Shown piece after piece: positions 5,126 through 62,383 of a stretch of DNA of 64,000 bases. A model generated the notes under the pieces. That model searched no databases and was not told the origin of the DNA. It saw only the letters and a list, made by a program, of their open reading frames with translations. Location: contig DASYBM010000016.1 of assembly GCA_036500765.1 (NCBI GenBank), positions 372,001 to 436,000 of the forward strand. Direction: 5' to 3'. This DNA is from Candidatus Sulfotelmatobacter sp. (GTDB taxonomy: Bacteria > Acidobacteriota > Terriglobia > Terriglobales > Acidobacteriaceae). The translations under genes were made by a program, and so were the position numbers. Position 1 is the first letter of the stretch. Each line of letters starts with the position of its first letter.

Positions 5126-5153
5126 TTGTGACGGAAACGTCTTTTGCTATAAT
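5126..5153 (+). promoter_or_regulatory. Sigma-70-type promoter of the Fe-S protein gene
   Basis: TTGTGA (5126-5131), a 16-base spacer and a perfect TATAAT (5148-5153) lie 31 bases before the ATG at 5184. A strong Shine-Dalgarno AAGGAG is at 5171-5176. This is the clearest promoter in the window. Confidence 0.75.
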
Positions 5154-5183
5154 TAAAACAGCTTTAGAGCCAAGGAGATACCA

Positions 5184-5579
5184 ATGGCCACCACATCCAT
5201 ACCTGAAGTGACCAAAACCGAAGCGACCAAAACTGAAGTCACCAAGAAGCCCGCCCCTGTGACCCTGACCACCAACGCCGTCGGCAAGGTGAAAGAGATC
5301 ATGGGACAGCAGAATCCCGTTCCCGCCGGCTTGCGCATTGGCGTAGTGGGTGGCGGCTGCTCGGGTTTCTCCTATTCCATGCAGTTCGAAAACGGCGCCG
5401 GCATGATGGACAAGACCTTCGACATGGATGGCCTCAAAGTGTTCGTCGATGCGACTTCGGTGATGTATTTGAATGGCTGCATCGTCGACTACGTCGAAAC
5501 CCTCGAAGGCGCCGGCTTCAAGTTCGAAAACCCGAACGTGAAAAGTACTTGCGGCTGCGGCTCATCCTTCAGCGTGTAA
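5184..5579 (+). CDS. Iron-sulfur cluster assembly/insertion protein (IscA/ErpA/HesB family)
   Basis: A 131-residue A-type Fe-S carrier. The three ligand cysteines are visible: GGGCSGFSY and the C-terminal STCGCGSSFSV. The family core begins at about residue 27 (LTTNAVGKVKEIM). The first 26 residues are a low-complexity Thr/Lys/Glu extension with the repeats VTKTEATKTEVTKK, longer than usual. It receives Fe-S clusters and delivers them to apo-enzymes in the cytoplasm. It has its own promoter and terminator and appears monocistronic, away from any suf or isc operon. Confidence 0.93.
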   Translation: MATTSIPEVTKTEATKTEVTKKPAPVTLTTNAVGKVKEIMGQQNPVPAGLRIGVVGGGCSGFSYSMQFENGAGMMDKTFDMDGLKVFVDATSVMYLNGCIVDYVETLEGAGFKFENPNVKSTCGCGSSFSV

Positions 5580-5610
5580 CCGTCGCGAAATCCTTCTGGA
5601 AACCTGGAGC

Positions 5611-5637
5611 GGCCTCACCAAAACGGTGAGGCCTTTT
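5611..5637 (+). terminator. Rho-independent terminator after the Fe-S protein gene
   Basis: Perfect 9-bp arms GGCCTCACC/GGTGAGGCC with a five-base loop are followed by TTTT, 31 bases past the stop codon. Confidence 0.85.
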
Positions 5638-5654
5638 CACTCGGAGAGAGTTTA

Positions 5655-5698
5655 TGTGGGGACGGCCCTCGGCCGTCCCCCGCGCGCAGCGCGGCTGT
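5655..5698. repeat. GC-rich palindromic intergenic repeat
   Basis: GGGGACGGCC and GGCCGTCCCC flank a 3-base loop, followed by a second short palindrome (CGCGCGCAGCGCGGC). It belongs to the GGGACGGCC/GGCCGTCCC family of palindromes scattered through the window and lies just past the end of the pilus operon. Confidence 0.6.
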
Positions 5699-5701
5699 CC
5701 T

Positions 5702-6676
5702 TCACTGCTGCTGTGGAGGATTCGTCGCCGGAGGGTTCGGTGCTCCGAATCCTCCCGACGATGGCGAACTTGAATTATTCTGCATTCCCGAAGGCGACGA
5801 ACTGAACGGACTGCTGCTCCCCGGCTGCTGACCGTTGAGATTCGGCATGCCCTGCTGTCCGAACGCCGTAATCTGCGGCTGGTACGGGCCTTTGATCAGG
5901 CCGCCACGATCGGTCGTCGGGTCGTAAACGAACTGCCATTCGTTGTATTTTTTTTTGTGATTGAACTCGCGGATGGTCTTGTCTTTCTTATTGGCGCTGG
6001 TCACTCCCACAATCGGACCGCCGCCAAAGGTCGCGCCGGGGCCGCTGCTATTCCCACCGGTACCGCTCCCTGTGCCGTTATTGTTGCCTGTCCCATTGGC
6101 GTCGCCCGTCCCATTTGCGCCGGTCGCGTCCGCACCGTTTTGCGAATTCGGCTGCGATGCATCCGTTCCCGCCGGCGTATTCGTCGCTGCCTGATTCTGA
6201 CCGAACGACGAATTGGAATTCGCTCCGAACAGCGCATTTCCCGGAGGCCCGCCTGGACCATTCGGCCCGTTTCCGCCGATCGGATTTGCGCCGGGTATCG
6301 ATCCGCCACCGAGGGCAAGTCCGCCCATCGCCAGTTGCGGGTCGCCATAGTGCAGCAAAACGAAATCTTTGCAGACGCCGTTCTTGCAGTTCTCAGGATC
6401 CTTATACCGCTTGCGCAGAAAACGAAGGTTGTTGCTGCTCTCGAGATCCTCGAGCTTGACCGGGTAGCGGCCGAATTTTTTGTAGTACCCGCGAATTGCT
6501 CGCGCGTACTGCACGCCGCGGTGAATCATCTCCTCTTCCCGATCGCGCTTGATGTCGAACGCAATCGTCGGCACGATCACCGCCGCAAAGATGACCATCA
6601 GCGCCATGACCAGAGTCAGCGTCAGCATGATGTAGCCGCTGTCCCGTCTGTCTCGAATTTCTGGTCGCAACAACAT
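5702..6676 (-). CDS. Pseudopilin-like (GspG/type IV pilin fold) protein with long Gly/Asn-rich tail
   Basis: A 324-residue protein, last gene of the pilus/T2SS operon. The N-terminus has a short basic leader and then a pilin-like hydrophobic helix (GYIMLTLTLVMALMVIFAAV), with Gly just before the helix as a prepilin peptidase site candidate. The following region (KFGRYPVKLEDLES..., about residues 65-110) resembles GspG pseudopilins. Residues about 120-225 are an unusual low-complexity Gly/Asn/Pro/Ala segment, and the C-terminus is Ser/Pro/Gln-rich. It probably sits in the periplasmic pseudopilus. Standard GspG proteins are about 140 residues, so this is more than twice the usual size. Confidence 0.8.
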   Translation of the reverse strand: MLLRPEIRDRRDSGYIMLTLTLVMALMVIFAAVIVPTIAFDIKRDREEEMIHRGVQYARAIRGYYKKFGRYPVKLEDLESSNNLRFLRKRYKDPENCKNGVCKDFVLLHYGDPQLAMGGLALGGGSIPGANPIGGNGPNGPGGPPGNALFGANSNSSFGQNQAATNTPAGTDASQPNSQNGADATGANGTGDANGTGNNNGTGSGTGGNSSGPGATFGGGPIVGVTSANKKDKTIREFNHKKKYNEWQFVYDPTTDRGGLIKGPYQPQITAFGQQGMPNLNGQQPGSSSPFSSSPSGMQNNSSSPSSGGFGAPNPPATNPPQQQ

Positions 6677-6768
6677 CGCTAAAATTGAGTAATTGTGAAA
6701 TTGAGTAATTGATACGCCCTCCGGTTTTCAATTACCCAATTACAAAATCACTCAATTACCCAATCCTT
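6677..6768. repeat. AT-rich inverted repeat AATTACTCAATT type
   Basis: Several copies of TTGAGTAATTG on one side and CAATTACCCAATTAC/CACTCAATTACCC on the other face each other around a GC-rich centre (6715-6725), between two genes of the same operon. A transcript could fold back here. The unit is about 14 bases (twice 7). Confidence 0.65.
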
Positions 6769-7374
6769 TCACCCCTGCGTCAGCGGAATGCTTTGCGGGG
6801 GGCCGCTGTTCACCACGTCCTGAATCTCCACCGACGTGGGCGTGATATGAATCACCTTATATTGCCGGTCCACAATTTCGCCTTCTCCCGCGACGAAGAC
6901 ATCTTCGCCATTCTTCAGGAATATTTTCTTTGGCTCGCCCATCCGGCTCGCGAACCCATAGAACTTGAGCGGAATCGGTGGCGAAGCCGGCGCGGTTGGC
7001 ACAACGTAAGCCGGACCCTTGGTTACATCAGTTGCACCCGATGACGTGGGATGCTCAATCTTCACATCTTCCGCCTGCGATACAAAAATGTTTCGCCCAT
7101 TCCCCTGATAGATCGTTTGTTCGCTTGTAGCCAGCAAATCGAGCCGCAACGTGGGATCGAGATTTTCCACGCGCGCCTTCTTCGTCGGCTTCGCTCCCGC
7201 GCGCGGATTCGACCGGGGCGTGACTGGCGCCGCAATCGGCGGCACGCTCGAAGAAGCCTCGGTCGACGATCCGGTGAAATACGGGATGACTTCAAACGCC
7301 AGCGCGAGAATCGCCACTGCGCCCAGCCCGGCCGCCCACATCGTCTTCTTCTTGTTTTCGAATCCCAGTTGCAC
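6769..7374 (-). CDS. Pilus assembly protein, PilP/GspC-like
   Basis: A 201-residue protein with one N-terminal membrane helix (about residues 12-32, WAAGLGAVAILALAFEVIPYF), a Pro/Ala/Ser linker, then a soluble periplasmic domain. Its C-terminal half (PLKFYGFASR ... FLKNGEDVFVAGEGEIVDRQYKV) has the short beta-rich pattern of PilP and of the GspC HR domain, which contact the secretin. It starts one base after pilO ends and is co-transcribed with it. Assignment rests on position, topology and this C-terminal pattern rather than on a decisive motif. Confidence 0.7.
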   Translation of the reverse strand: MQLGFENKKKTMWAAGLGAVAILALAFEVIPYFTGSSTEASSSVPPIAAPVTPRSNPRAGAKPTKKARVENLDPTLRLDLLATSEQTIYQGNGRNIFVSQAEDVKIEHPTSSGATDVTKGPAYVVPTAPASPPIPLKFYGFASRMGEPKKIFLKNGEDVFVAGEGEIVDRQYKVIHITPTSVEIQDVVNSGPPQSIPLTQG

Positions 7375-7914
7375 TTACGATCCCGCCTTCAAATACGCTT
7401 CCAGCTTCACGCTCAATTTGACCGGACCCTGCGGCTGGCCGCCAAGCGTAACGCTATTGATGATAAAAAACATTTCGTCTCGCTCCATCGCGTTAATGAA
7501 ATGGGCGAGTGCGGTATAGTTGCCGGAGAAGTCCGCTTCGATTTCCACCGGCTCCAATCCCCCGGCGTCGGTGGGCAGCACTTTGTACTTCTCCTGGTCG
7601 ATGGTTACACCGTTGGCGGCCGCGATCTTCCCCAGTTCCGTCAGAATCTGCGACTCCTGGGTAGGGAAGCGCTTCTTATAAAAGTCGCCGATCTCGTGAC
7701 TGGCCAAAATAACTTTCTGCGGAAGATCTTTCAGCGGCGCCACCTGGCGCGTCTTCGTGATCAACTCCGTTTGCAGCGTGTTCAATTCCTGCCGCCGCGA
7801 TTCCGCGGAACCGACGAGCGGCGAAAAATATACCGCCGCGGCCAGCACATCCGCCGCCGCCATGATGGCCAGCGCCGTTTTCAGACTTTTTCGGGTTCGC
7901 CGGAAGTCAGGCAT
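7375..7914 (-). CDS. pilO: Type IV pilus inner-membrane assembly protein PilO
   Basis: A 179-residue protein with a short cytoplasmic start, one membrane helix (about residues 13-33, ALAIMAAADVLAAAVYFSP), a coiled-coil segment (about 38-60) and a ferredoxin-like periplasmic domain ending SVKLEAYLKAGS. Size and topology match PilO/GspM-like proteins, which pair with PilN to align the inner-membrane platform. Its ATG overlaps the pilN stop (TAATG), indicating translational coupling. Confidence 0.85.
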   Translation of the reverse strand: MPDFRRTRKSLKTALAIMAAADVLAAAVYFSPLVGSAESRRQELNTLQTELITKTRQVAPLKDLPQKVILASHEIGDFYKKRFPTQESQILTELGKIAAANGVTIDQEKYKVLPTDAGGLEPVEIEADFSGNYTALAHFINAMERDEMFFIINSVTLGGQPQGPVKLSVKLEAYLKAGS

Positions 7915-8672
7915 TAGCGCGGCCCTCCGTTCGGCATCGCCCGTTTCGGTTTCAGGCCCGGTTTAGCCACTGATTTGTCATTCGAAGATTTGCCATTAGA
8001 AGACTTGCCATTCGAAGGTTTACCCTCGGATCCTTTGCCTTCGCTCGGTTTGGCGCCGGTCTTCGCCCTCGGCTCCAGTTTCTGCGCCTCCGGGCCCGCG
8101 GGCGGCGGCTCGGGAATGTACACCGCAACAATATCGACTTGCTCGTTGTCACCGGTCTGCGACTGCTGAAAACGCGCGTCCGTGATGTGCGTTTCCGCGA
8201 AGCGCTTCGATTCCTCCATGCGGCGCGCCAGTTCGAGTGCCCGATCCCGCGAATCGCCCGCCACGCTCATCTTCAGCCCCAGCTGATTATCCTCATCGAG
8301 CTGCGGCGTGATCGCGATCAGGTGCACTCGCGGCGGCATTACCTTTTCCAGATTTTCCAGCACGCGCGTCCAGGAAAACGCCTTGCGCTCGATCAGTTCA
8401 TTCAGAAACTGCGACATATCGCGGGTGTTGCGGTTTTCCTGACGATTCAGAAATCCCTCCGCGTTGGCGCGCAATCGATCGCGATCGGCAATCATCGCTT
8501 CCTTCTGCGCAATGGCCGCCCGATCCCGCCGCGCATTCACCCAGCCGGTCACGTCCAGCGTTACCAGCACCAGCGTCAGCACCCCCACCGCACCCACGGC
8601 GGTGCCCCAGCGCATCCAGAACTGGCGCGCATCCTCGTAAGGCTGGCTCGCGAGATTGATATCAAGACGCAT
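7914..8672 (-). CDS. pilN: Type IV pilus assembly protein PilN with low-complexity tail
   Basis: A 252-residue protein. The N-terminal INLASQPYED segment is the conserved PilN motif that binds PilM. A membrane helix follows (about residues 25-47, GTAVGAVGVLTLVLVTLDVTG), then a coiled coil and a periplasmic domain. After residue about 195 there is a Lys/Ser/Gly/Asn-rich tail with short repeats (SNGKSSNGKSSNDKS) not usual in PilN. Overlaps pilO by the TAATG junction. Confidence 0.87.
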   Translation of the reverse strand: MRLDINLASQPYEDARQFWMRWGTAVGAVGVLTLVLVTLDVTGWVNARRDRAAIAQKEAMIADRDRLRANAEGFLNRQENRNTRDMSQFLNELIERKAFSWTRVLENLEKVMPPRVHLIAITPQLDEDNQLGLKMSVAGDSRDRALELARRMEESKRFAETHITDARFQQSQTGDNEQVDIVAVYIPEPPPAGPEAQKLEPRAKTGAKPSEGKGSEGKPSNGKSSNGKSSNDKSVAKPGLKPKRAMPNGGPR

Positions 8673-8674
8673 AA

Positions 8675-8774
8675 AATCGGTCGTTAGTCGTTAGTCTTCG
8701 GTCGTCGGTCTTCGGTCGTCAGTAGTTGGTTTGGGTTTTGCCGACGACCAACGACCGACGACCAACGACGGTTT
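8675..8774. repeat. Heptamer-type array, inverted arrangement
   Basis: GTCGTTAGTCGTTAGTC... (8681-8730) faces GACGACCAACGACCGACGACC (8741-8770) around a short T/G-rich centre, inside the operon between pilM and pilN. Potential long hairpin in the polycistronic mRNA. Confidence 0.75.
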
Positions 8775-9671
8775 TCACGAAATTAACGCTCCCACCACTC
8801 CTGCCATTCTCCACTTCGGCACCGCCCCGCCCGTGCTCGCGCCCAGTTGCGCTGACGACACCAGCTCCTGCACATCGGCGCCGGTCTGCGCCCGCAACGC
8901 CGGAGCGGCTCCGCCCGGCTCCGCCAACCCGGCAATATAGATGCGCTCGATGTTCAGGTGATAAGTGTCCTGAAAAAACACCACCGACGGATACACTTCC
9001 TCCGCCAGTTGCTCGCCGTTAATGGTCACGCCGCGCGAGTTTTCCAGCGTGCGGAACAGTTGCAGCTGATCCTGATTCAGGATCGCAATACTCGTCGTGT
9101 GCGCATCCACTTTGATTACCAGCGTCGGCTTCTTCCCGTCGGCCGCGCCAATCGCCGCCAGCGTCGAGGGCAGCACCACGCCGGGATTGAATCCCGCCTC
9201 GCGAAATACTTTCTCGTAATCTTCGATGACGCTTGTCATCGCCACAGCTGCCACGACGCGCACTTCCTCGCCTACTTTCTGGGCGTGATACGAAACCTTC
9301 GCTTTGTCGACGTCGAAGGGCAGAGACTTCTTCAGCCGGAATTTCACCACGCCCAGCGCCTCGTCCGAATCCGAGGGCAGCGCATCGAATTCGACCAGCA
9401 TCACCCGCACGGCAGCGTCGGGAACAACGGCAATCACATCTTTCGAGCGCTGCGCCACTCCGCCCAGCGCCTCGTGGATTCCGGCGCGCACCGCTTCGCG
9501 CTGCCGCAAATTGTTTTCCACCAGATCCGGAACCACGCTGCCCGGCGCCAGTTCGCGCGCCGCCGAAGCCTCCAGCCCGCCTCCCGCATCCGAGAAGCGC
9601 CCGGCCAGCACGCGGTCCGCCGCAATTTCGCAAGCCAGCTTCGGCTTAGGTGTGTTTGAATTGGAACTCAT
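8775..9671 (-). CDS. pilM: Type IV pilus assembly ATPase-like protein PilM
   Basis: A 298-residue protein of the actin-like PilM/GspL-cytoplasmic family. It begins with a short low-complexity stretch (MSSNSNTPKPK) and then the ACEIAADRV segment in place of a canonical phosphate-1 loop. FRLKKSLPFDVDKAKVSYH is the typical PilM region, and TLVIKVDAHTTSIAIL the second phosphate-binding-like strand. It would dock on the PilN N-terminus in the cytoplasm and connect with PilB. The C-terminus is a little shorter than in classical PilM (about 350 residues). Confidence 0.85.
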   Translation of the reverse strand: MSSNSNTPKPKLACEIAADRVLAGRFSDAGGGLEASAARELAPGSVVPDLVENNLRQREAVRAGIHEALGGVAQRSKDVIAVVPDAAVRVMLVEFDALPSDSDEALGVVKFRLKKSLPFDVDKAKVSYHAQKVGEEVRVVAAVAMTSVIEDYEKVFREAGFNPGVVLPSTLAAIGAADGKKPTLVIKVDAHTTSIAILNQDQLQLFRTLENSRGVTINGEQLAEEVYPSVVFFQDTYHLNIERIYIAGLAEPGGAAPALRAQTGADVQELVSSAQLGASTGGAVPKWRMAGVVGALIS

Positions 9672-9863
9672 TCCCGAGTACGCCTTTGAGTAATTCTGTT
9701 CTCTAAATCAGAATCCTTATCGCCAGGAATTGCAATAGCTGAAAGGGAACTTGAGGTTGGCAGGTTTCACAGTTTCAGAGTTTCACGGCTTCAAAGTTTC
9801 AACGATGAAAGCCTCGGGATTCATTTGCAGAATATTGAAACCTTGAAACCTTCGAACAATGCC
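9672..9863. repeat. TTTCA-rich intergenic repeat between pilB and pilM
   Basis: The stretch 9768-9860 contains TTTCACAGTTTCAGAGTTTCACGGCTTCAAAGTTTCAA and, further on, TTGAAACCTTGAAACCTTCGAA, giving an imperfect inverted repeat with 7-8 base periodicity. No gene is visible. Confidence 0.55.
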
Positions 9864-11534
9864 TTACCTCATCGCCTCAATGAACGTGACCTTATTGATC
9901 TCCTTCAGCGTGGTCATTCCCAGCCGGACTTTATCCAGCGCCGACTCGCGCAGGAAGCGCATGCCCTCATCGCGGGCGGCGCGCCGAATCTCCGACGTCG
10001 GCTTCTTGGCCAGAATCATTTCCCGGATGCGGTCGCTTAAATCCAGCAGTTCGTGAATCGCGGTTCGCCCGCGGAATCCCGTGCCCGCGCACTCAATGCA
10101 GCCCGGCCCGTCATACAACGGAACCTTGCCCCACTGCGCCGCATCGAGCCCGCTGGCTTCCAGAACTTCGGGCGCGTAATGGACTTCCGTGCGGCACGAT
10201 TCGCAAATCAACCGCACCAGTCGCTGCGCCAGAATGCAGTTCAACGCCGAAACAAAGTTGTAAGGCTCGACGCCCATATTCAGGAATCGGCCAATCACAT
10301 CGACCACGTTGTTGGCGTGAACCGTGGTAAAGACCAGGTGACCGGTCAGCGCCGATTGAATGGCGATCTGCGCCGTTTCCGAGTCGCGGATTTCGCCCAC
10401 CATGATCTTGTCCGGATCATGGCGCAGAATCGATCGCAGCCCGCGCGCGAAGGTCAGTCCTTTTTTCTCGTTCACCGGAATCTGCGTAATGCCGCGCAAC
10501 TGATATTCGACTGGATCTTCAATGGTGATGATCTTGTCTTCGTCGGTCTTGATTTCGTTGACCGCGGCGTAGAGCGTAGTCGTTTTGCCACTGCCCGTCG
10601 GCCCCGTCACCAGCACCATGCCGTACGGTTCTTTGATGTAGCGGCGAAAGCGGCGCAGGTCATCTTCGTCAAACCCAACTACGTCGAGAGTCAGAGTCCG
10701 GAACTTCTCGCTCATCGATTCTTTATCGAGGACACGTAATACAGCGTCTTCGCCATGAATCGAGGGCATGATCGAGACGCGGAAGTCGATGGCGCGCCCG
10801 TTATATTTCACGCGGAAGCGTCCGTCCTGGGGCACGCGCCGCTCGGAAATATCGAGCTCGCTCATAACCTTGATACGCGAAATCACCGTCGAATGGTGCT
10901 CTTTGCCGATCGGCGGCATGGCCTGCGTGAGCACACCGTCAATGCGGAACTTGATGACCACGGAATCGTCGCGGGTCTCAATGTGAATGTCGGACGCTCG
11001 CCGTTGCAGCGCGGTGAAGATCGTAGTATCGACTAAGCGGATGATCGGGCTGGTATCGCCCGTCGCCGTCAACTTGTCGATGCTCAGTGTCTCTTCGGCG
11101 CCGGTATTCTCGTCCTCGCGAATAATCTGGAAGCCTTCGCTGGCCTCTTCGAGCACCCGCTGCGACTGCTCGGTCTTGGTGAGGATGTTGTCGATCTGCT
11201 TCAGCGTTGAAACTTTGGTGATGATGCGCTGCTTCAGCAGCAGGCTGATCTCGTCGATCATCATCAGCTGGCTGGGATCGGCGATGGCGATGGCCAGCTT
11301 GCCGTCGACAGTTTCTTCGAGCGGCACAAACTTGTAGCGGAACATCAGCTCGACGGGAATTTTCTTGAACAGCTCGTGATGCAACTCAAAGCCCGACAGG
11401 TCGATAAACTCGCAGCGATAGCGCCGCGCCACATCCTGTGCGCGCTCCAGGTCGGTGATAGGATTTCCCGTCGGGCTGATCGGCCCGCCGTTTCCCCCAC
11501 CTACGAACAACGATTTTTTATCGGCTGTCGCCAT
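9864..11534 (-). CDS. pilB: Type IV pilus/type II secretion assembly ATPase PilB/GspE
   Basis: A 556-residue hexameric extension ATPase. The N-terminal MshEN-like domain spans about residues 25-130. The Walker A GPTGSGKT is at about 311-318, an Asp-box region (EDPVEYQ) follows, then Walker B DKIMVGEIRD and the His box (TTVHANN). A tetracysteine zinc motif (CESC ... CIEC) lies between Walker B and the C-terminus. ATG 11534 (MATADKKS) is preferred over 11579, which starts in the upstream repeat; AGGA lies about 10 bases before it. It drives pilin or pseudopilin assembly. Confidence 0.95.
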   Translation of the reverse strand: MATADKKSLFVGGGNGGPISPTGNPITDLERAQDVARRYRCEFIDLSGFELHHELFKKIPVELMFRYKFVPLEETVDGKLAIAIADPSQLMMIDEISLLLKQRIITKVSTLKQIDNILTKTEQSQRVLEEASEGFQIIREDENTGAEETLSIDKLTATGDTSPIIRLVDTTIFTALQRRASDIHIETRDDSVVIKFRIDGVLTQAMPPIGKEHHSTVISRIKVMSELDISERRVPQDGRFRVKYNGRAIDFRVSIMPSIHGEDAVLRVLDKESMSEKFRTLTLDVVGFDEDDLRRFRRYIKEPYGMVLVTGPTGSGKTTTLYAAVNEIKTDEDKIITIEDPVEYQLRGITQIPVNEKKGLTFARGLRSILRHDPDKIMVGEIRDSETAQIAIQSALTGHLVFTTVHANNVVDVIGRFLNMGVEPYNFVSALNCILAQRLVRLICESCRTEVHYAPEVLEASGLDAAQWGKVPLYDGPGCIECAGTGFRGRTAIHELLDLSDRIREMILAKKPTSEIRRAARDEGMRFLRESALDKVRLGMTTLKEINKVTFIEAMR

Positions 11535-11580
11535 GCTTATTCCTGCTGCGGCCCACTCAAAAATTTCAGTCGTCGTCATC

Positions 11581-11628
11581 TGTCAGTGGCCGACGACTAA
11601 CGACCGACGACCGACGACTAACGACGAT
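11581..11628. repeat. Heptamer-type CGACGAC array
   Basis: Tandem CGACGACTAACGACCGACGACC-type units of 7 bases, all in one orientation, between pilC and pilB. Confidence 0.7.
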
Positions 11629-12828
11629 TTAATGCACTCCCAAAGTAAAGATCGGCAAATACAGCGAAATCAGCACTCCGCCGACAAAAATCGCCATCAC
11701 AATCAAAATCAGCGGCTCGATCAGTGCCATCGACGCGCCCAGCGCTGTCTGCACGTCTTCTTCGTAAAATTCCGCCACCGAGTTCAGCATCGCCGGCAAC
11801 GCTCCGGTGGATTCTCCGACTTCGATCATTTCCACCGCCAGCTCCGGAAAAATCTTCTGCTCTTCCAGGCTGCCCGCCAGTCCCTGGCCCTCGCGCACTC
11901 TTACGCCGGCCCGCATCACTCCCTTTAAGATGCGACGGCTGCTCATCGAAGCGCCTGCGGTTTCCATCGCCGGCACCAGCGGCAGGCCGCCCTGCAACAG
12001 CGTCGAAAGCATGCGCGAGAAACTCGCAATCTGGTGCTTCAATCGAATGTCGCCCAACACCGGCGTGCTCAAAATCACGCGATCGATCTGGTCCGCTCCA
12101 CGATCGGTTTCTTTCCAGCGCCACATCGCGAACAGGAAAATTACCAGCCCAACAAAGAAATATGGCCCATACCTCTGCGCATTCTGCCCAACGTCGAGCA
12201 TGAACACCGTGATGGCCGGCAGCTTCGCGTCCAGGCTCTCAAACAAATCCGCAAACTTCGGCACCACGTAAGTGAACAAAAACGTCACCATGATGATCAC
12301 CACGCTGATCAGCAGCGTGGGATAAATCAGCGACACGAACAGCTTCTTGCGGAACGTCATGGCCAGCCGCTGAAAGGCGATATAGCGCGTCAGCACCTCG
12401 TCGATGTTGCCGCTCTTTTCCCCCGCCATCAGGGTGGTCGTATAAATTTTGGGCACGATCCCCTGCGCCGCAAAAGAATCCGACAGCAATTCGCCGCCCT
12501 TCACCCGATCGCGCACGTTCTCCAGAATCTGCCGCAACTGCGCGTCTTTCTGCCGCTTGATCAGCAGTTCCAGCGAATTCAGGATGGGCAGCCCGGCCCG
12601 GATCAGCGTCAGAAATTGCTGGTTGAACACCAGAAACGTGCTCTGCTTCAACTTCCGCCGCCGGCTCAGCGACACACCCGACGTCAGCATGCCCTGGGGC
12701 TTGACCCAGTACACCAAATAGCCTTGCTGCGAGAAGCGGTCGCGCACTTCCGCTTCCGAGTAGCCCTGCTCGATGTGCTGCTGGACGTGCCCGCGATCGT
12801 CCGCGATCTTGACTACAAATTCCGCCAT
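11629..12828 (-). CDS. pilC: Type IV pilus/type II secretion platform protein PilC/GspF
   Basis: A 399-residue inner-membrane platform protein. The N-terminal residues (about 1-55) form the soluble entry domain, followed by two copies of the GspF domain (about 70-190 and 275-395). Membrane helices are visible at about 172-192 (LIYPTLLISVVIIMVTFLFTY), 222-240 (YFFVGLVIFLFAMW) and 375-393 (LILIVMAIFVGGVLISLYLP). The conserved FxxGGLPLVPA segment is present. It sits first in the visible pilus operon and works with PilB to rotate or extrude the pilus. Confidence 0.93.
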   Translation of the reverse strand: MAEFVVKIADDRGHVQQHIEQGYSEAEVRDRFSQQGYLVYWVKPQGMLTSGVSLSRRRKLKQSTFLVFNQQFLTLIRAGLPILNSLELLIKRQKDAQLRQILENVRDRVKGGELLSDSFAAQGIVPKIYTTTLMAGEKSGNIDEVLTRYIAFQRLAMTFRKKLFVSLIYPTLLISVVIIMVTFLFTYVVPKFADLFESLDAKLPAITVFMLDVGQNAQRYGPYFFVGLVIFLFAMWRWKETDRGADQIDRVILSTPVLGDIRLKHQIASFSRMLSTLLQGGLPLVPAMETAGASMSSRRILKGVMRAGVRVREGQGLAGSLEEQKIFPELAVEMIEVGESTGALPAMLNSVAEFYEEDVQTALGASMALIEPLILIVMAIFVGGVLISLYLPIFTLGVH

Positions 12829-13071
12829 TGGCCGACTTTTCCGCTGACCTTCCCGCCGACTTTGCCGATTCCGCTGCCGATCGTTTTGCCCAGCTCGCCT
12901 TATCGCTCAGTCTAACATTCCCACTAACTATTCTAAGACACCAACACTCATCTGATGACGCCTGCCCGGTACTCAAGTAACTTCAAGAAATGGATGTTTC
13001 AAGGGCTAGGATGCTTTGTCATTCCGAGCGGAAGCGAGGAATCTGCTTTCCGCCGCTGCTGGCACGAACCC
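12829..13071. other. Intergenic region with CATTCCGAGCG repeat
   Basis: Bases 13018-13055 hold the motif GTCATTCCGAGCGGAAGCGAG followed by GAATCTGC, a repeat family also seen at 21603-21692, 53894, 54270 and 55368. A Pro/Ser-coding-looking stretch next to the pilC start has no stop-free gene of its own. Confidence 0.5.
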
Positions 13072-13746
13072 CTACTCCAGTGCCCCCTCGACCGTTTCAG
13101 TCCCCGCCGGCGGTTTGAACGCAAACCGCCCATCGGCGATCGGCACGTCTTCCTTCGTCTCGCCAAACCGATATTCCGTCGCTGCCCCATCCACTTCCTG
13201 AATGACAATGCGCATAATCTGGTGCTCCGGCGTCACCTCCAGCACAATTTCGCTCACGCGATCCGCCAACGCCGTCGGCACTCCCCGCAGCACCACGTCC
13301 CCGGACTGTAGCGGCTCTATATCTGGAGCTAGAGATAATCCCTGTAACTCTTTCTCTAATTTGGCCTTGCCCAGCAAGAACGCCAGGGGAGAGCGCACGT
13401 CATCCAGCTTTTTCGCCGCCGTCTTCCGCGCCTGCCGATCCGCCGGGACGTAAAACCACGCATCTCTCCCATCGCTGACAAACAGCTTCTCCCTGGGAGA
13501 ACGGTACTCCCACCGCATCTTGCCCGGTTTTTTCAGCCACAGCGTCCCGGTTTCGGTCCGCCCCATCCCCGACCCGCGATACAACTCGGTGAACTCTGCC
13601 TCAAGCGAATGAAGATGGTTGTAGTGAGCGTCGACCGCCTCAGCCACAGCTTTGACGTCAACCGGAGCGTCTGCCGCAATGCCCGCAGGTGCGAGCGTCG
13701 CAGTTATATAAAGCGCAATCGCAAAGCTCAGCCAACGAACTCGCAT
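13072..13746 (-). CDS. lolA: Outer-membrane lipoprotein carrier protein LolA
   Basis: A 224-residue periplasmic chaperone with a signal peptide (MRVRWLSFAIALYITATLAPAG..., cleavage near AIAADA). The LolA core is recognisable from SLEAEFTELYRG, GTLWLKKPGKMRWEY, and LFVSDGRDAWFYVP, ending in IQEVDGAATEYRF and FKPPAGTETV. It shuttles lipoproteins from LolCDE to the outer membrane. It lies upstream of the pilus operon on the same strand with a 243-base gap, so co-transcription is uncertain. Confidence 0.9.
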   Translation of the reverse strand: MRVRWLSFAIALYITATLAPAGIAADAPVDVKAVAEAVDAHYNHLHSLEAEFTELYRGSGMGRTETGTLWLKKPGKMRWEYRSPREKLFVSDGRDAWFYVPADRQARKTAAKKLDDVRSPLAFLLGKAKLEKELQGLSLAPDIEPLQSGDVVLRGVPTALADRVSEIVLEVTPEHQIMRIVIQEVDGAATEYRFGETKEDVPIADGRFAFKPPAGTETVEGALE

Positions 13747-13871
13747 CGGGATCGATTTTCACCGGGTACCCGCCCAACATGTCACACCCTCACGCAACTC
13801 GGGAGGGCAACACAGGACAGGTTCCAACTGGAGGGCTCCTCAACTGATTGTAAGCCGCAGCAGAGGGCTTG

Positions 13872-15581
13872 TCATTTCAACCTAGAGGAGCCATCTGAGG
13901 ATCTTACCGACGACTCCTTTCCTTGGCTCGAACTGGAAATCAGTCCATACACGCTCAGCTTGCTCTGCGTCCCCACATACACTTTCCCGTTCACGACGGT
14001 CGGCACGGCGAACTTCACGGCCCCGCCCGGATTGTCGCGACTGGCGTTCTGGTTGGTGTTGTAGAGTTCGGTCGCCAGGTTCTTGGCGTCGTAGGCGTGC
14101 AGAACGGCTCCGGTATTGGTTTTGTAAGAGGAGTTGTCGAGTCCCCACGCGATGGCGTTGCTGTCCTGATTCGCCGATACCGAAATCGTGGTTCCGGGAT
14201 AGGGAAATGGAGCCGTGGTCTGAGAAGCCGGCGCAGTGTTGAGCAATCCGTTGCTTGGATTGAAGCCAAATTCCTTGAGCGTGTCATTCGCCGCGCCAAA
14301 GTAGATGCGATTATTCCAGAACGTCGGCGAGTTCCACATTCCCAGTTCTGCGCCCGCCAGATACTGCACGATCTGATTGTTATTCTGCGCATTGTAGTGC
14401 CCCATGTTGTCGCGGTTCACCAGATAAATGTTCCCCACCTTGTCGCCCTGGATCAACAGATGAAGAACCGGTCCGCTGGTCTGGTCGGGCAGCAGCATCA
14501 AGCCTCCCGAGCCGATGTCGAAGTCTCCCACATTCAGGTTGGGACCGTTGTAGGGCGTGAAGTAGTCGAGCACCGCAAACGTGCCTTTCTTTGGCGACGC
14601 CAGCTTCACCATGCTTTGACCGTAATCGGTGCCGGCGCTGTTGGCGTCGAAAGTTCCATTGCCCGTCGCGAAATAAGTATTCAGCGATTCATCTCCGGCC
14701 GGCCCGGAGCCGCTCTCCCAAATCGCGCCTTGTTCGCCGTTCGGCGTCGTCGCCCACGCGCCCTTCTGCTCCAGCGACTTGTCGTCGTACGCCATCAGCC
14801 ATCCGTGATAGCCGCCGCTGTCGCAGTGCGAACCCCACGCGATGTACACCTGCCCGTTCTGCAACAGCAGCGCGGAGCGTTGATTCTGGATCTGCGGATT
14901 AAAGCTCAGCGTGCCGTTAACCGACCCATTGCCCGTACCCGCCACTGACGCCTGAATCACCACCGGACCGCCAAATTTTTCCGCTCCGCTGCCGATATCG
15001 AGCGCATGCAGCCGCTGATAAAACACGCCCTTCTTCTCCTTAGTTCGCGCCACGACATACAACGTTCCGCTCGTCGTGTCGATCACCGGCGTGCCCACAA
15101 CCCCAATTTCCGGTGTAATCAGATCGGAGCAATTTACGTCGTTGCTGGAGACCGTCGTGATTCCTTTCTTCGGGTCGATGAAGCTTACTTTCCACAACGG
15201 CTGCGCGTTCGAGCCCGCGCGATTATCGGCGTCAAAGGCGTAGACGCTGTCGTTCATGGTGGCCACAAATACCGCATTGTGCGTGCCCAGTCCCGCGACG
15301 CTGACATTGGGGACGTACAACGGCTGCGCATAAATGTAGCCGTCCACATACTGTGAAAAGATCCTGCCAAATTGTGTGGAGTTCACGTTGCTTAAAGTAA
15401 GAGTGGTTTCCAGCAGATTGTGGCCGGTTCGTCCCTTGTCGTTGTGATAAGTCGAGACCGTGGCCTGCCCCGCGCTGGCTGCGGTTGCGACTACCCAAAA
15501 CGCGATCAGCCAAAAACAGACAAAGCCCAAAGAAAAAGGAATCGGCCAGCGAAACCGTACAGCTCCGGGGCATATCGCCAT
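13872..15581 (-). CDS. Secreted PQQ-like beta-propeller protein
   Basis: A 569-residue exported protein. A signal/anchor segment covers about residues 11-36 (WPIPFSLGFVCFWLIAFWVV). The rest is propeller blades with phrases such as HNAVFVATMNDSVYAFDAD, GTPVIDTTSGTLYVVART, and WNNRIYFGAANDTLKEF, close to the PQQ/quinoprotein-dehydrogenase-like family common in Acidobacteriota. There is no clear catalytic pair of a true PQQ dehydrogenase, so an enzymatic role is doubtful. GGAG lies 6 bases ahead of the ATG, supporting the start. Confidence 0.8.
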   Translation of the reverse strand: MAICPGAVRFRWPIPFSLGFVCFWLIAFWVVATAASAGQATVSTYHNDKGRTGHNLLETTLTLSNVNSTQFGRIFSQYVDGYIYAQPLYVPNVSVAGLGTHNAVFVATMNDSVYAFDADNRAGSNAQPLWKVSFIDPKKGITTVSSNDVNCSDLITPEIGVVGTPVIDTTSGTLYVVARTKEKKGVFYQRLHALDIGSGAEKFGGPVVIQASVAGTGNGSVNGTLSFNPQIQNQRSALLLQNGQVYIAWGSHCDSGGYHGWLMAYDDKSLEQKGAWATTPNGEQGAIWESGSGPAGDESLNTYFATGNGTFDANSAGTDYGQSMVKLASPKKGTFAVLDYFTPYNGPNLNVGDFDIGSGGLMLLPDQTSGPVLHLLIQGDKVGNIYLVNRDNMGHYNAQNNNQIVQYLAGAELGMWNSPTFWNNRIYFGAANDTLKEFGFNPSNGLLNTAPASQTTAPFPYPGTTISVSANQDSNAIAWGLDNSSYKTNTGAVLHAYDAKNLATELYNTNQNASRDNPGGAVKFAVPTVVNGKVYVGTQSKLSVYGLISSSSQGKESSVRSSDGSSRLK

Positions 15582-53829: not shown

Positions 53830-53959
53830 GAATATTTGTCATTTCGAGCGCCGTTGTGACGCACGTCACGATGAAAACCACCCTTGATCTCTAGGTCATT
53901 CCGAACGGCTTCAGCCGTGAGGAACCTGCTGTTCACCGGGAGCGCCCTTGCCGCCGGAG
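53830..53959. other. Intergenic region with CATTCCGAACGGCTTCAGCC repeat
   Basis: Bases 53897-53935 carry a CATTCCGAACGGCTTCAGCC piece and GAGGAACCTGCTG, members of the repeat family described at 21603. No gene supported. Confidence 0.5.
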
Positions 53960-54307
53960 ATGTGCTACTACGTCTACATCATGTCGAGCAAAAGCCGCGT
54001 CCTGTACATCGGCGTCACCGGATTTCTCATGGCCCGAGTCCTGCGCCACAAAGCCGGCGAGGGAGGAAAGTTCACCGCTAAGTATCGCGTACACCGCCTG
54101 GTCTACTTCCACGCCTACCAAAACGTCGGCGATGCCATCGCCCGCGAAACCGAAATCAAAGCCTGGCGTCGCGAGAAGAAAGTCGCTCTGATCCGCGAAA
54201 ATAATCCCACCTGGGAAGACCTCGCCGCAGGCTGGGGCGAACCGGTTGTCATGCGAGTCGACGGGAAAGCAGATTCCTCACCGGCAAAGAACGCCGGTTC
54301 GGAATGA
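53960..54307 (+). CDS. GIY-YIG domain protein
   Basis: A 115-residue protein of the GIY-YIG nuclease superfamily (short UvrC-like, endonuclease-like group): YYVYIMSSKSRVLYIGVTG (GIY/YIG), LVYFHAYQNVGDAIARE, and the lysine-rich EKKVALIREN. Core spans about residues 1-85. The C-terminal residues (GKADSSPAKNAGSE) are encoded by a repeated sequence found at 55368. ATG 53960 is the first clear Met; a TTG start at 53948 is possible. Confidence 0.82.
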   Translation: MCYYVYIMSSKSRVLYIGVTGFLMARVLRHKAGEGGKFTAKYRVHRLVYFHAYQNVGDAIARETEIKAWRREKKVALIRENNPTWEDLAAGWGEPVVMRVDGKADSSPAKNAGSE

Positions 54308-54405: not shown

Positions 54406-54648
54406 ATGCCCAAGCCCGACATCGCCAAACTCTTCCAAAACGGACGCAGCCAAGCCGTCCGCCTGCCCAAAGAATTTCGTTTCGAGGGAGACCGCGTGCG
54501 CATCCGCCGAGTCCAGCAAGGAGTCCTGCTTGAGCCGCTAATCCCGGACACGTCGCGCTGGTTTGAGGCACTGGACCAATTTAACTCCGAGCGGTTTATG
54601 TCTCGCGGACGCCGCCAGCCCCGCACACCGAAGCGGAAAATTTTCTAG
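54406..54648 (+). CDS. VapB-type antitoxin
   Basis: An 80-residue antitoxin: [20 protein letters not shown] is the AbrB-like DNA-binding region shared with the antitoxin at 41841, followed by [15 protein letters not shown] and a charged C-terminus. Its stop overlaps the toxin GTG start by one base. Confidence 0.88.
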
Positions 54649-55061
54649 TGGACTACCTGCTGGATACCAACGCCTGCATTGCCCTGATCAACGGTACTTC
54701 GGCAGGAGTCCGCACTCGCGTGAAAAAAGCGTCAGACGGAGGTGCGCGAATTCTGGTATCGTCTATCTCAACTTTCGAACTGTGGTATGGCGTGCGCAAG
54801 AGCACGAAGCAGGAGTTCAATCGTAAGCGCCTCGAGGCCTTTTTGTCCGGCCCGATTCTCGTGCTTCCTTTCGAAGACGCCGACTCCCGCGCAGCAGGCA
54901 CCCTTCGGGCAGCCCTCGAAGCCTCCGGCAAACGGATTGGAGCGTATGACCTTTTAATTGGAGGACAGGCATTGCGTCATCAGTTGACACTGGTCACCGC
55001 CAACGTTTCCGAGTTCCCGCGCGTGAAAGGGCTCCTGTGGGAAGATTGGGCGAAGCCGTAA
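54648..55061 (+). CDS. PIN-domain toxin VapC-like
   Basis: A 137-residue PIN toxin: YLLDTNACIALING, SISTFELWYGVRKS, and the C-terminal DLLIGGQALRHQLTLVTANV. GTG start at 54648. Neutralised by the antitoxin encoded immediately upstream; RNA target unknown. Confidence 0.88.
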   Translation: MDYLLDTNACIALINGTSAGVRTRVKKASDGGARILVSSISTFELWYGVRKSTKQEFNRKRLEAFLSGPILVLPFEDADSRAAGTLRAALEASGKRIGAYDLLIGGQALRHQLTLVTANVSEFPRVKGLLWEDWAKP

Positions 55062-55593: not shown

Positions 55594-57822
55594 ATGCGCA
55601 AGCCGATCAAGTACGTAGAAAAAGCAGCCGTCATTGCCGCTCAAGGGACTTGGGCCGTGTTCGATCGCTTGAACCGGATCAAGCCGAATCCGTCGCCCAC
55701 GCCGAAGTGGTCGGAAAAGCCGCTGCTGAAGTCGTACGAGAAGTCGAAGCCGCCGCTGGGCTGGCCGCGCTCGACCGATTCGCTATGCCCGAAGTGTGTG
55801 CCGGAGATCCGGCAGCAGATTCTCGACGGGCATCTGCCGCATGAAGTGCTGATGAATGAGAAGGTCGGCGAGATCAAGGCCACCATCGTCGAAAGAGACG
55901 GAAAGATTTTGATGGTGAAAGATTGCCCGACGCACGGTCACTTCGAAGACGTGATGTCGATCGACACGGAGTTCTCGAAGCATCTTGAAGACGTGTTTCC
56001 CGGCCGCGACATCAAGGCGCATAACGACGAGCATCTGCATCACCACGGGTCTTCCACGGTGAAATATGGTCGCGGCTCGGTGCTGACGATCGATCTGACC
56101 AACCGCTGCAACATGATGTGCGATCCCTGCTTCATGGACGCGAACCAGGTTGGCTTCGTCCACGAACTCACGTGGGAAGAAATCAAGACGATGCTCGACA
56201 ACGCCATCACCATCAAGCCGCGCCGGCAGATGAGTGTGCAGTTCTCCGGCGGCGAGCCGACGTTGTCGCCGTACTTCCTTGACGCCGTGCGCTACGCGCG
56301 CAAGGTCGGATACAACTCCGTGCAGGCCGCAACCAACGGAATTGAATTTGCGAAGAGCTTTGAATTCGCGCAGCAGGCGGTCGAAGCCGGCATGCGCTAT
56401 GCGTATCTGCAATTCGACGGCATTGGCAACGCCGCGAATGCGCATCGCCTCGTCGGAAACTTGTTCGATGTGAAATTGAAGGCGATTGAAAACCTGCACA
56501 AAGCCGGATGCGAAATCGTTCCAGTTGTGACGATCGTCAACGGCATCAACAACGAGCAGGTCGGAAGAATCATCAAGTTCGCGCTCGACAATCCGAAAAC
56601 AATCAGCTTCCTCAGCTTCCAGCCGGTCAGCTTCACCGGCCGCGACGAAGCCGTCACCGACGACCGCCGCGCCGCGCAGCGCTACACGCTGAGCCATCTC
56701 GCGCACGACGTAAAAAATCAAACCGGCCTGGGCGAGCCCACCCGCGACTGGTTCCCGATTTCATTCATGGGAACCTTTAGCGACTGGGCCGACCTGATGC
56801 ACGTCAACGACCCAAAAAACGACTGGGGGCAACTATCTTGTGGTTGCCACCCGAATTGCGGGACTGGCATGGCTGTCATGATTGACAAGGAAACCAAGGA
56901 GGCTGTGCCGGTCACGGCGTTCTTGAAGGGCGATCAGCTTGCCAAGGACATTGCGAAGGTGAATGATGCGGCGCGCGGTAAGTTCTGGACGGGATTTGGA
57001 ATGGCTTTGTGTTTGATGAAGAACTACGATCCGTATCAGGCGCCGACGCATTTCAAGCTGATGGATCTTTTGAAAAAGTTCGACAAGAATTATCACATCA
57101 CGGGAAAAAACTACGGCAAGGTGGGACCGGACAGGACGATCGACGACGTGATGAAGCGGCGCACGAGCGATCGCTGGAACTTTTTGTTCATCGCGGGGAT
57201 GTGGTTTCAGGACCTGTTCAATTACGACTTCCGGCGGACGGAGCAGTGCATTATTCCGTACGCGACGCAGGAAGGCGAGATTTCGTTCTGCGCTTACAAC
57301 ACGGGCGTGGGCTGGCGGAACATCATCGAGAAGATGCACATGACGGCCACGCTGACCAAGTGGTACGAGGAGCACGGACGACATGAAATCTTTGCCGGCG
57401 GCAAGAAAGTGAACATGGAGCAGCCAGAGACGGCGACGGAGTATCTGAAGCTGCGCGAAGAGATCGTGACCAATGAACTGCAACGCGATCTCGACAGCAA
57501 AGGCATCGCGAAGAATGCGCGCGAGGAAAAAATTCGCGCGCGGGATGCGAAGCAGAAGGCTGCCGCCGAGAAGTCCTCGCTTGTCGCAAAGGACGCGAGA
57601 AATGGGGCACCCGAGGCGCGAGGGGCGGAGAAGAACGACGAAGCCTATAACGCGCGGATGGCTTCGCTGTATCGCGAAGTCGTGCTGAAAGAGAAGCCGG
57701 TCGTGGCTGAGAATGGGTTTATTCCGCTCGGCGCTCTCACTAAGACGAATGGCGGCATTGCTCCTGCGCCGAAGCCGGAAATAGCGAAGCCGGAAGTAGC
57801 GGAGCCGGTGGCGGGGGATTGA
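55594..57822 (+). CDS. Radical SAM enzyme of the Tes/MJ0619-like group
   Basis: A 742-residue radical SAM protein. The [4Fe-4S] SAM site is CNMMCDPC (C172, C176, C179), followed by GGEP (QFSGGEPTLS). Upstream is a second Cys site CPKC (C65, C68) with CPTHG (C111), as in archaeal Tes and MJ0619-type radical SAMs. Later Cys groups (LSCGCHPNCGTG; EQCIIP; ISFCAYN) look like auxiliary clusters. The C-terminal about 100 residues are Lys/Ala/Glu-rich and contain a repeat-derived segment (LVAKDARNGAPEARG). Tes-like proteins join two alkyl chains; a role in iso-diabolic (membrane-spanning) lipid synthesis is proposed, not proven. Confidence 0.85.
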   Translation: MRKPIKYVEKAAVIAAQGTWAVFDRLNRIKPNPSPTPKWSEKPLLKSYEKSKPPLGWPRSTDSLCPKCVPEIRQQILDGHLPHEVLMNEKVGEIKATIVERDGKILMVKDCPTHGHFEDVMSIDTEFSKHLEDVFPGRDIKAHNDEHLHHHGSSTVKYGRGSVLTIDLTNRCNMMCDPCFMDANQVGFVHELTWEEIKTMLDNAITIKPRRQMSVQFSGGEPTLSPYFLDAVRYARKVGYNSVQAATNGIEFAKSFEFAQQAVEAGMRYAYLQFDGIGNAANAHRLVGNLFDVKLKAIENLHKAGCEIVPVVTIVNGINNEQVGRIIKFALDNPKTISFLSFQPVSFTGRDEAVTDDRRAAQRYTLSHLAHDVKNQTGLGEPTRDWFPISFMGTFSDWADLMHVNDPKNDWGQLSCGCHPNCGTGMAVMIDKETKEAVPVTAFLKGDQLAKDIAKVNDAARGKFWTGFGMALCLMKNYDPYQAPTHFKLMDLLKKFDKNYHITGKNYGKVGPDRTIDDVMKRRTSDRWNFLFIAGMWFQDLFNYDFRRTEQCIIPYATQEGEISFCAYNTGVGWRNIIEKMHMTATLTKWYEEHGRHEIFAGGKKVNMEQPETATEYLKLREEIVTNELQRDLDSKGIAKNAREEKIRARDAKQKAAAEKSSLVAKDARNGAPEARGAEKNDEAYNARMASLYREVVLKEKPVVAENGFIPLGALTKTNGGIAPAPKPEIAKPEVAEPVAGD
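57577..57615 (+). repeat. In-frame copy of the CTCGCAAAGGACGCGAG repeat within the radical SAM gene
   Basis: TCGCTTGTCGCAAAGGACGC and following GAGAAATGGGGCACCCGAG are close copies of the intergenic repeats at 24605 and (inverted) 55077, and encode LVAKDARNGAPEARG. Confidence 0.8.
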
Positions 57823-60704: not shown

Positions 60705-60967
60705 TTTCGCCCGGTTTAGCGTCCGTTAAATCTGCATTCAATCCTGAATCTGAATCGCAAACCCTCTAGAGTTATTCCTGTAGGACGTTTTTCCCGCTTC
60801 GTGTCGAATTTCCATCCTTGACGGGACCTCGGTACTTTTCCCGGCCCTCGCCCCAAGCCCCTGCAAACAGTGCCCTTTTGGTCGATTCCTCCAATGGCCA
60901 CCTCCGTGCATTTCTACCCTGTGCCACTCGCATGCAAGGATTCTCTCGTATCCGGAGGCGTTTTTTT

Positions 60968-62383
60968 ATGAAATATCCTCTTACGAAGCACGTCCGAATT
61001 CATTCCTGGCTTCCAATCATGGCGCTCGCCACCCTGATTTCGGTGACGCCCGCAAGAGCTCAATCCAACTCTATGCCGCAGGACCGCGATGCGGACCTGA
61101 CTCATCGGCAGTTGGCCGCATTCGACCAGTTTCTCGATAGCCATTCAGAAATTGGCGGACAGCTTCGCAAAGATCCAGCGCTGATAAATAACCAGGACTT
61201 CGTGGCCAATCACCCCGAACTCCAGCGCTACCTGCAAGACCATCCTGAAGTGCGCGAGGATCTGAATCGGAATCCCAGCGCCGTGATGCATCAGGAAGAA
61301 CGCTACGATCGCCGGGAAGACGACAGAGATCGAGACCGCGACCGTAATGACACCAACCGGACCGAACTCGCGAACATGGATCGCTTCATGGACAGCCATC
61401 CCGAGATCGCCGAGCAGTTGCGCAAAGATCCGTCGCTCGTCGACAACAAGCAGTTCGTTCACGATCATCCTGCGCTACAGGAATTCCTGGCCAGTCATCC
61501 CGGCGTGCGCGAGGAGTACAAGGAAAATCCCAACGCCTTCATGCATCGTGAAGACCGCTTCGACCAGCGCCAAGAAAATTTAGGAGCAGATAACCGGGGC
61601 GATCGCGACATCAACCGCACCGAACTGGGGAATCTGGATCGCTTTATGGACAGCCATCCGGAGATCGCCGAGCAATTGCGGAAAAACCCATCGCTTGCCG
61701 ACGACAAACAATTCGTTCACGATCACCCTGCTTTTCAGGAATTTCTGGCCAGTCATCCTGGGGTGCGCGAGGAGTTGAAAGAAAATCCCAACGCGTTCAT
61801 GCACCGTGAAGATCGCTTCGATCAGCGCCAAGATAACCGAGGGGATCGCGACGTGACCCATCTCGAACTCGCGAACATGGATCGCTTCATGGACAGTCAC
61901 CCCGAGATCGCCGAGCAGTTGCGCAAAGATCCGTCGCTCGTTGACAACAAGCAATTTGTCCAGGATCATCCCGCGCTACAGGAATTCCTGGCCAGCCACC
62001 CGGGCGTGCGCGAGGAGTACAAGGAAAATCCCAACGCCTTCATGCATCAGGAAGCGCGCTTTGACCGCCGCGAAGACGCCATGCGCGGCGACAACGACGT
62101 GACCCGCGGCGAACTCTCCAGCTTCCACAGTTTTCTCGCGGACCACAGCAACATCGGCGCGGAACTCAGCAAGAACCCGGGCCTTGCGACCAACCAGGAA
62201 TATCTGGCGAATCATCCTGAGTTGCACAGCTACCTGCAAGCGCATCCGCAGGTAAACGAGGAATTGAGCGAAAACTCCGCTTCGTTCGTGAAGTCGGCCC
62301 AGCAGTTTGAAACGCCGGCCAAACCCGGACCGCGGCCCATGTCCGATCCAAAGATGTCGAACCCGATGCCGAACCAAAAATGA
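60968..62383 (+). CDS. Exported charged repeat protein (five repeats of about 80 residues)
   Basis: A 471-residue protein with a signal segment (HSWLPIMALATLISVTPARA, cleavage near RAQS) and five repeats: roughly residues 35-115, 120-205, 205-290, 290-370 and 375-440. Each repeat has DRFMDSHPEIAEQLRKDPSL and FLASHPGVREE plus NPNAFMH. Asp/Glu/Arg/His-rich, with few aromatics. Repeats 2-4 are more alike at DNA level than the outer ones. Function unknown; the sequences suggest helical, soluble periplasmic repeats. ATG 60968 has GGAGG about 9 bases upstream. Confidence 0.78.
   Translation: MKYPLTKHVRIHSWLPIMALATLISVTPARAQSNSMPQDRDADLTHRQLAAFDQFLDSHSEIGGQLRKDPALINNQDFVANHPELQRYLQDHPEVREDLNRNPSAVMHQEERYDRREDDRDRDRDRNDTNRTELANMDRFMDSHPEIAEQLRKDPSLVDNKQFVHDHPALQEFLASHPGVREEYKENPNAFMHREDRFDQRQENLGADNRGDRDINRTELGNLDRFMDSHPEIAEQLRKNPSLADDKQFVHDHPAFQEFLASHPGVREELKENPNAFMHREDRFDQRQDNRGDRDVTHLELANMDRFMDSHPEIAEQLRKDPSLVDNKQFVQDHPALQEFLASHPGVREEYKENPNAFMHQEARFDRREDAMRGDNDVTRGELSSFHSFLADHSNIGAELSKNPGLATNQEYLANHPELHSYLQAHPQVNEELSENSASFVKSAQQFETPAKPGPRPMSDPKMSNPMPNQK

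Follow-up and report, generated by a model that had tools for sequence, protein, structure and literature searches.

Candidatus Sulfotelmatobacter sp. encodes a 742-aa radical SAM protein whose placement in the tetraether synthase (Tes) family is strongly supported by sequence comparison. It represents a type, here called class B, that lacks one auxiliary iron-sulfur cluster of the archaeal enzymes and keeps the remaining sites. By analogy with the archaeal protein MJ0619, we consider it moderately likely that the protein joins iso-C15 phospholipid tails into membrane-spanning lipids based on iso-diabolic acid.

Reconstructions of past soil temperature and pH draw on branched GDGTs (brGDGTs), which rank among the most widely used proxies. 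Acidobacteriota are their main known producers, and the tail-joining enzyme in this phylum is undemonstrated in the literature searched. A role of acidobacterial Tes homologs in membrane-spanning lipids was proposed by Zeng et al. 2022 (PMC8941075) and Halamka et al. 2022 (PMC10087280) and was biochemically untested as of 2025 (PMC11868695). The phyletic and neighborhood evidence presented here fits that proposal.

Identification and phylogeny

The gene lies in a 64,000-nucleotide stretch of DNA, referred to as the window. The original prediction, made from this stretch, placed the open reading frame exactly (Table 1). All the motifs it named were seen in the translation: SLCPKC, DCPTHG, CxxxCxxC, GGEP (within SGGEP), and two later cysteine groups (C416/C418/C422 and C552/C566). 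Its identification of a Tes/MJ0619-like radical SAM protein is upheld by profile and structure matches, Pfam domains, the tree, and conserved catalytic residues. The best NCBIfam model is Tes (tetraether lipid synthase), NF045702 (E=1.3e-94, 317.6 bits), followed by TrsS (NF045646) and NirJ1 (71 bits). The score falls under the NF045702 equivalog cut-off of 450 bits, which counts against a coupling role. Pfam domains are an HMPTM-type zinc ribbon (residues 58–122) and Radical_SAM (168–330). The top match among solved structures is 7TOL (MJ0619/GDGT-MAS; E=9e-63, 32% identity over ~500 residues). An AlphaFold2 model built with 40 close relatives was poor (pLDDT 57, pTM 0.59) and not reliable enough to judge the pocket or the geometry of the ligands; Foldseek on this low-confidence model returned 7TOL/7TOM first (E 1e-21), with the next match at 2e-5. 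Among named records, Candidatus Sulfotelmatobacter MAGs come closest, with 90% identity.

TABLE 1 Features of the class B gene, with positions in the window
Feature	Position	Strand	Basis
Class B Tes-like radical SAM protein, 742 aa	55594..57822	+	ATG to stop; NCBIfam, 7TOL match, tree
N-terminal extension, residues 1–58, predicted helix 3–28	55594..55767	+	Alignment; AlphaFold2 model
C65-x2-C68, Cys3His mononuclear iron site half 1 (MJ0619 C9, C12)	55786..55797	+	20/20 class B, 21/21 class A
C111-x2-H114, mononuclear iron site half 2 (MJ0619 C33, H36)	55924..55935	+	20/20 class B
Residues 145–158 (DEHLHHHGSSTVKY), where CPxxCGLC..H ligands of the N-terminal auxiliary [4Fe-4S] are expected	56026..56067	+	Alignment
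CxxxCxxC radical SAM ligands C172, C176, C179	56107..56130	+	Pfam; alignment
QPVSFTGR SAM loop, Q343/S346/R350 (MJ0619 Q268/S271/R275)	56620..56643	+	Invariant in class B
CGCHPNC, C422 (MJ0619 C338), catalytic C-terminal auxiliary cluster ligand	56839..56859	+	Alignment
M536 (MJ0619 Met439), labile [Fe4S4]C ligand	57199..57201	+	Invariant in class A and B
C552 (MJ0619 C455), presumed [Fe4S4]C ligand	57247..57249	+	Invariant
Y556 (MJ0619 Tyr459), active site	57259..57261	+	Invariant
C566 (MJ0619 C470), presumed [Fe4S4]C ligand	57289..57291	+	Invariant
C-terminal extension, residues 584–742	57343..57819	+	Alignment

A maximum-likelihood tree was built from 61 proteins, with MJ0619 as the sole archaeal sequence. 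Class B is monophyletic in this tree (support 100/100). Class B, a second acidobacterial type called class A, and MJ0619 (48 rows together) share one side of a branch against the other groups (96/91). Class B is nested within this Tes clade, and family groups C, D, and E lie outside. A constraint excluding class B from class A and MJ0619 costs 48 log units and is rejected (p-AU 0.0003). Membership in an unrelated radical SAM clade, the outcome that the original prediction had named as contrary to it, is thus not what the tree gives. The class B stem is long, at 1.67 changes per site, and the exact sister of class B within Tes is therefore uncertain. Such a stem can mean a changed substrate and counts against the coupling role.

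Groups C, D, and E were found in other Acidobacteriota (L165–L178), with none in the host genome. Group C has CPYDCGLC and DxCNLxCPxCYA motifs, group D has CPHDCGLC and CNMxCPLCF, and group E has CPRDCGPC. A divergent class-B-like protein of 585 aa on a long branch (L180, G432:C214) is a possible new class B subtype; its genome has other class B matches.

Metal sites and SAM binding

Residues were mapped by alignment to MJ0619, with ligand assignments from Lloyd et al. 2022 (PMC9433317). Conservation was scored across 21 class A proteins and 20 class B proteins, the latter drawn from many families. The cysteine ligands of the C-terminal auxiliary cluster, [Fe4S4]C, were deduced for class B from conservation; the methionine ligand is taken from PMC9433317. 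In MJ0619, this cluster holds the first tail radical as a C-S intermediate (PMC9433317). The radical SAM cysteines, the counterparts of C338, C455, C470, Met439, and Tyr459, and the SAM loop are invariant in class B, which counts for coupling, and Tyr459 is not essential in MJ0619 (PMC9433317). SAM-binding residues G220, Y271, D275, Q343, S346, and R350 are kept in the 742-aa protein. MJ0619 Arg210 is not kept in class B in the alignment, which counts against coupling. C416 and C418 within CGCHPNC are extra cysteines.

The N-terminal extension is conserved in class B and absent from the aligned MJ0619 and class A. Its helix was considered as an amphipathic membrane anchor and rejected, as the hydrophobic moment is not above that of shuffled sequences (p=0.75). 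The C-terminal extension is partly conserved within class B and is also absent from class A and MJ0619.

The original prediction invoked the Tes plan of a rubredoxin-like site and three [4Fe-4S] clusters. The rubredoxin-like, radical SAM, and [Fe4S4]C sites were found, but the ligands of the N-terminal auxiliary cluster, [Fe4S4]N, are absent, a further point against coupling. All four are gone in 20/20 class B proteins and all four are present in 21/21 class A proteins. In MJ0619 numbering, C73 is a gap in class B, C77 is replaced by H, C80 by S, and H83 by K or T. Since CGLC or CGPC is retained in groups C, D, and E too, loss of the motif in class B is derived. No role for [Fe4S4]N is known to the authors of the MJ0619 study (PMC9433317). 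With one auxiliary cluster lost and the rest intact, class B is a natural experiment on the cofactor needs of sp3-sp3 coupling.

These same features bear on a competing explanation, in which class B alters lipid tails otherwise (by mid-chain or C5 methylation, thiolation, or cyclisation) and an unrelated Mss-type enzyme makes iso-diabolic acid. We regard it as rather unlikely. Every [Fe4S4]C ligand, and with them the site of the C-S coupling intermediate, is kept, and class B nests in Tes apart from the other family groups. However, the long stem, the missing cluster, and the changed Arg210 would suit another chemistry, the InterPro family is named Methyltransferase_Class_D (PMC9433317), and validated Mss is reported from other phyla, with homologs in some Acidobacteriota MAGs (PMC11868695).

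Distribution and lipid content

In a survey of 396 Acidobacteriota genomes, 211 had a match to the Tes model at E<=1e-25 and 185 had no Tes-level match. Matches fall into two types, with few scores in between. Class A is the high-scoring type (472–619 bits; 33 genomes over the cut-off), with frames mostly of about 510–640 aa. Class B, the type found in the window, scores about 310–348 bits and has longer frames. Mean identity to MJ0619 is 43% for class A and 31% for class B. All 50 host-family genomes in the 396-genome draw, and all four further members of the host's taxonomic class, have a match of class A or class B strength. A broader draw of 80 host-family genomes gave a match in 71, some solely to class A or other groups. 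The host genome (5.04 Mb, 99.3% complete) has one Tes-level homolog; the runner-up match scores 48 bits.

Class B was seen in named Granulicella and Acidipila records and in Chloracidobacterium-like genomes, and is frequent in Bryobacterales MAGs. Carriers also include genomes that we take to be Acidobacterium capsulatum, Terriglobus saanensis, and Koribacter versatilis. A class B protein at 74% identity was found on a contig labelled Rhodanobacteraceae (L134), which probably reflects misbinning, not transfer. Zeng et al. 2022 (PMC8941075) gave identities to archaeal Tes of 42% for Koribacter, 40% for Solibacter, and 32% for Edaphobacter aggregans. These two levels correspond to class A and class B.

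Lipid data and gene presence were matched at the genus or subdivision level. Iso-diabolic acid is common in Acidobacteriota subdivisions 1, 3, and 4 (PMC4644332). It is a primary fatty acid of Chloracidobacterium (PMC12816986), and makes up 27–49% of fatty acids in the Occallatibacter group (PMC12935467) and 12–30% in Edaphobacter, with 26.4% in E. aggregans (PMC11354219). Class B carriers within producer groups include Granulicella, Acidipila, the Chloracidobacterium-like genomes, and those taken to be A. capsulatum and T. saanensis. The clearest example is E. aggregans, which has a single Tes homolog, at the 32% identity given above, and makes both iso-diabolic acid and brGDGTs (PMC8941075, PMC11354219). 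That identity is at class B level, and the lipid data fit a class B role. Solibacter usitatus fits less easily: it makes brGDGTs, is reported to have two Tes homologs, and has no detectable iso-diabolic acid (PMC10087280). Its 40% homolog would be class A by identity value.

Gene neighborhood

Neighboring genes were predicted with a codon-usage caller. The original prediction described the gene as single and not in an operon. This is correct for the host genome, where class B stands alone between unrelated neighbors, but in relatives the gene is clustered. In the window, a MazE-type antitoxin and PIN toxin pair (54406–55061) lies just upstream, and DinB and then S51 peptidase genes lie downstream. 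A conserved operon in the window itself was rejected, as the toxin-antitoxin pair, DinB, and S51 peptidase are not common to relatives as a block. A small open reading frame at 53948–54307 looks by eye like a member of the GIY-YIG nuclease family. Positions 60818–62383 encode a repetitive protein of secreted appearance, in which a unit like DRFMDSHPEIAEQLRKDPSLVDNKQFVHDHPALQEFLASHPGVREE occurs about five times; its Pfam matches are weak and scattered.

In relatives, an elb-like gene for a HAD and fatty-acyl-reductase protein lies <=10 kb downstream of class B on the same strand in 9/25 family genomes that have both. These nine linkages span nine genera, and the gap between the two genes is 130–190 bp in several genomes. 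In those several genomes, the reductase is followed by NAD_binding_4, pyruvyl-transferase-like, acyl-AMP ligase, enoyl-CoA hydratase, ACP, second ligase, and DAG-kinase-like genes. The probability of this linkage under random placement is ~1e-20, a value computed with 26 genomes and uncorrected for shared ancestry. The reductase cluster is present in 30 of the 80 family genomes, and most class B carriers among the 80 are without it. Five of the 30 cluster genomes are without class B, and the partnership is therefore not obligate. A requirement of class B for the elb-like cluster was accordingly rejected on both counts.

Class A is the neighbor in seven other genomes, <=12 kb downstream of class B on the same strand. 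One genome with class B upstream of class A is presumably Koribacter versatilis. Class A (13 genomes) and the reductase (30 genomes) co-occur in 0/80 family genomes, with ~5 expected (Fisher p 0.001, relatedness ignored).

The host genome carries an elb-like cluster on another contig (L147, G000:C4:1113001-1133000, positions 5064–15449, minus strand). Its genes are HAD/fatty-acyl reductase, NAD_binding_4, pyruvyl-transferase-like, ligase, enoyl-CoA hydratase, ACP, ligase, and DAG kinase. The host also encodes a 1202-aa Ger-like protein with two BadF ATPase domains and DUF2229 (L164, G000:C9:122001-142000), a domain layout that has been suggested for glycerol ester reductase (PMC13274423). At this locus (7204–14519, minus strand), the gene for the 1202-aa Ger/PlsA-like protein is accompanied by one for a 596-aa protein with no Pfam match, and directly upstream lies a gene for a 491-aa radical SAM/SPASM protein. 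These genes are a candidate ether-forming locus.

This genetic context could mean that class B couples ether-bound tails only, converting diethers to brGDGTs, and is not the source of ester-bound iso-diabolic acid. Linkage to the elb-like cluster in nine genomes points that way, as do the cluster and the two-BadF/DUF2229 protein of the host. We judge this alternative improbable. Most class B carriers are without the reductase cluster, Edaphobacter is rich in iso-diabolic acid with none of its glycerol ethers detected (PMC11354219), and MJ0619 bound an ester phosphatidic acid as well (PMC9433317).

A division of labor between the two Tes types is conceivable, although we put it forward with considerable doubt. 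Class B, without [Fe4S4]N, would couple ester-bound iso-C15 tails generally. Class A or the elb-like cluster, mutually exclusive and each found near class B, would supply the ether-bound (brGDGT) branch. If this is true, C(sp3)-C(sp3) coupling can proceed without [Fe4S4]N.

Proposed reaction and significance

In the favored reading, coupling of iso-C15 tails, class B would be a bacterial subtype of tetraether synthase. It would take two phospholipids from opposite leaflets and join an iso-C15 acyl tail of each, omega end to omega end, by a C(sp3)-C(sp3) bond. The product would be a membrane-spanning lipid based on iso-diabolic acid in tetraester form, which would be the precursor of brGDGTs once ether-forming enzymes act as well. 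Following MJ0619, a 5′-deoxyadenosyl radical would take a hydrogen from one tail end, and a sulfur atom of [Fe4S4]C would hold the resulting carbon radical. The second tail, activated by a further SAM-derived radical, would then attack the held carbon to make the C-C bond. The substrate (iso-C15 tails, with ester phospholipids first), the product, and the leaflet geometry are inferred from this analogy. MJ0619 homologs also occur in bacteria for which no synthesis of biphytanyl chains is known (PMC9433317), and this counts against the coupling role.

A methyltransferase acting on the pterin 7,8-dihydro-6-hydroxymethylpterin, the original annotation of MJ0619, is very improbable: the Zn_ribbon_HMPTM Pfam match (49.6 bits) keeps the old annotation in its name, but the MJ0619 structural study failed to reproduce the activity and the long hydrophobic pocket speaks against it (PMC9433317).

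The coupling reading is directly testable, as class B is a single family-wide gene with a conserved catalytic core, and in culturable genera iso-diabolic acid accounts for as much as half of the fatty acids. In the literature searched, a search that the central Mss paper lies outside, we found no description of class B as a separate type that has lost a cluster, of its position beside elb-like genes or class A, or of the mutual exclusion of these two partners.

Comparison with known systems

The cluster adjacent to class B shares HAD, fatty-acyl reductase, NAD-epimerase type, ACS, and ACP components with the Myxococcus elb operon (PMC9131029), a likeness at the level of domain composition. Unlike Myxococcus elb, it has no acyltransferase domain that could be found, and it has extra enoyl-CoA hydratase, pyruvyl-transferase-like, and DAG-kinase genes. 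TrsS (NF045646) belongs to the same superfamily as class B (205 bits).

Mss of Thermotoga and Thermoanaerobacter, reportedly described by Sahonero-Canavesi in 2022 as a bacterial membrane-spanning lipid synthase, is a radical SAM enzyme. Tail coupling to (iso-)diabolic acid is proposed for it, as for class B. The genome of T. maritima, a validated Mss host, gave no match to the Tes model at E<=1e-25, whereas class B matches at E=1e-94. This control genome indicates, indirectly, that Mss is a different radical SAM group from class B.

Bacterial class A, the Koribacter and Solibacter type, belongs to the same Tes clade as class B and lies nearby in the seven genomes noted above. It differs in keeping CPxxCGLC, in its score of 470–620 bits, and in being without the class B extensions. 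Archaeal Tes/GDGT-MAS (MJ0619, PDB 7TOL/7TOM; Saci_0703; MA_1486) shares its fold with class B, as judged from sequence and the low-confidence model. Compared with archaeal Tes, class B has 32% identity, no [Fe4S4]N ligands, no Arg210, an N-terminal helix, and a long C-terminal extension. MJ0619 and class B have in common the Cys3His mononuclear site, the radical SAM cluster, [Fe4S4]C with its methionine, Tyr459, and the SAM loop.
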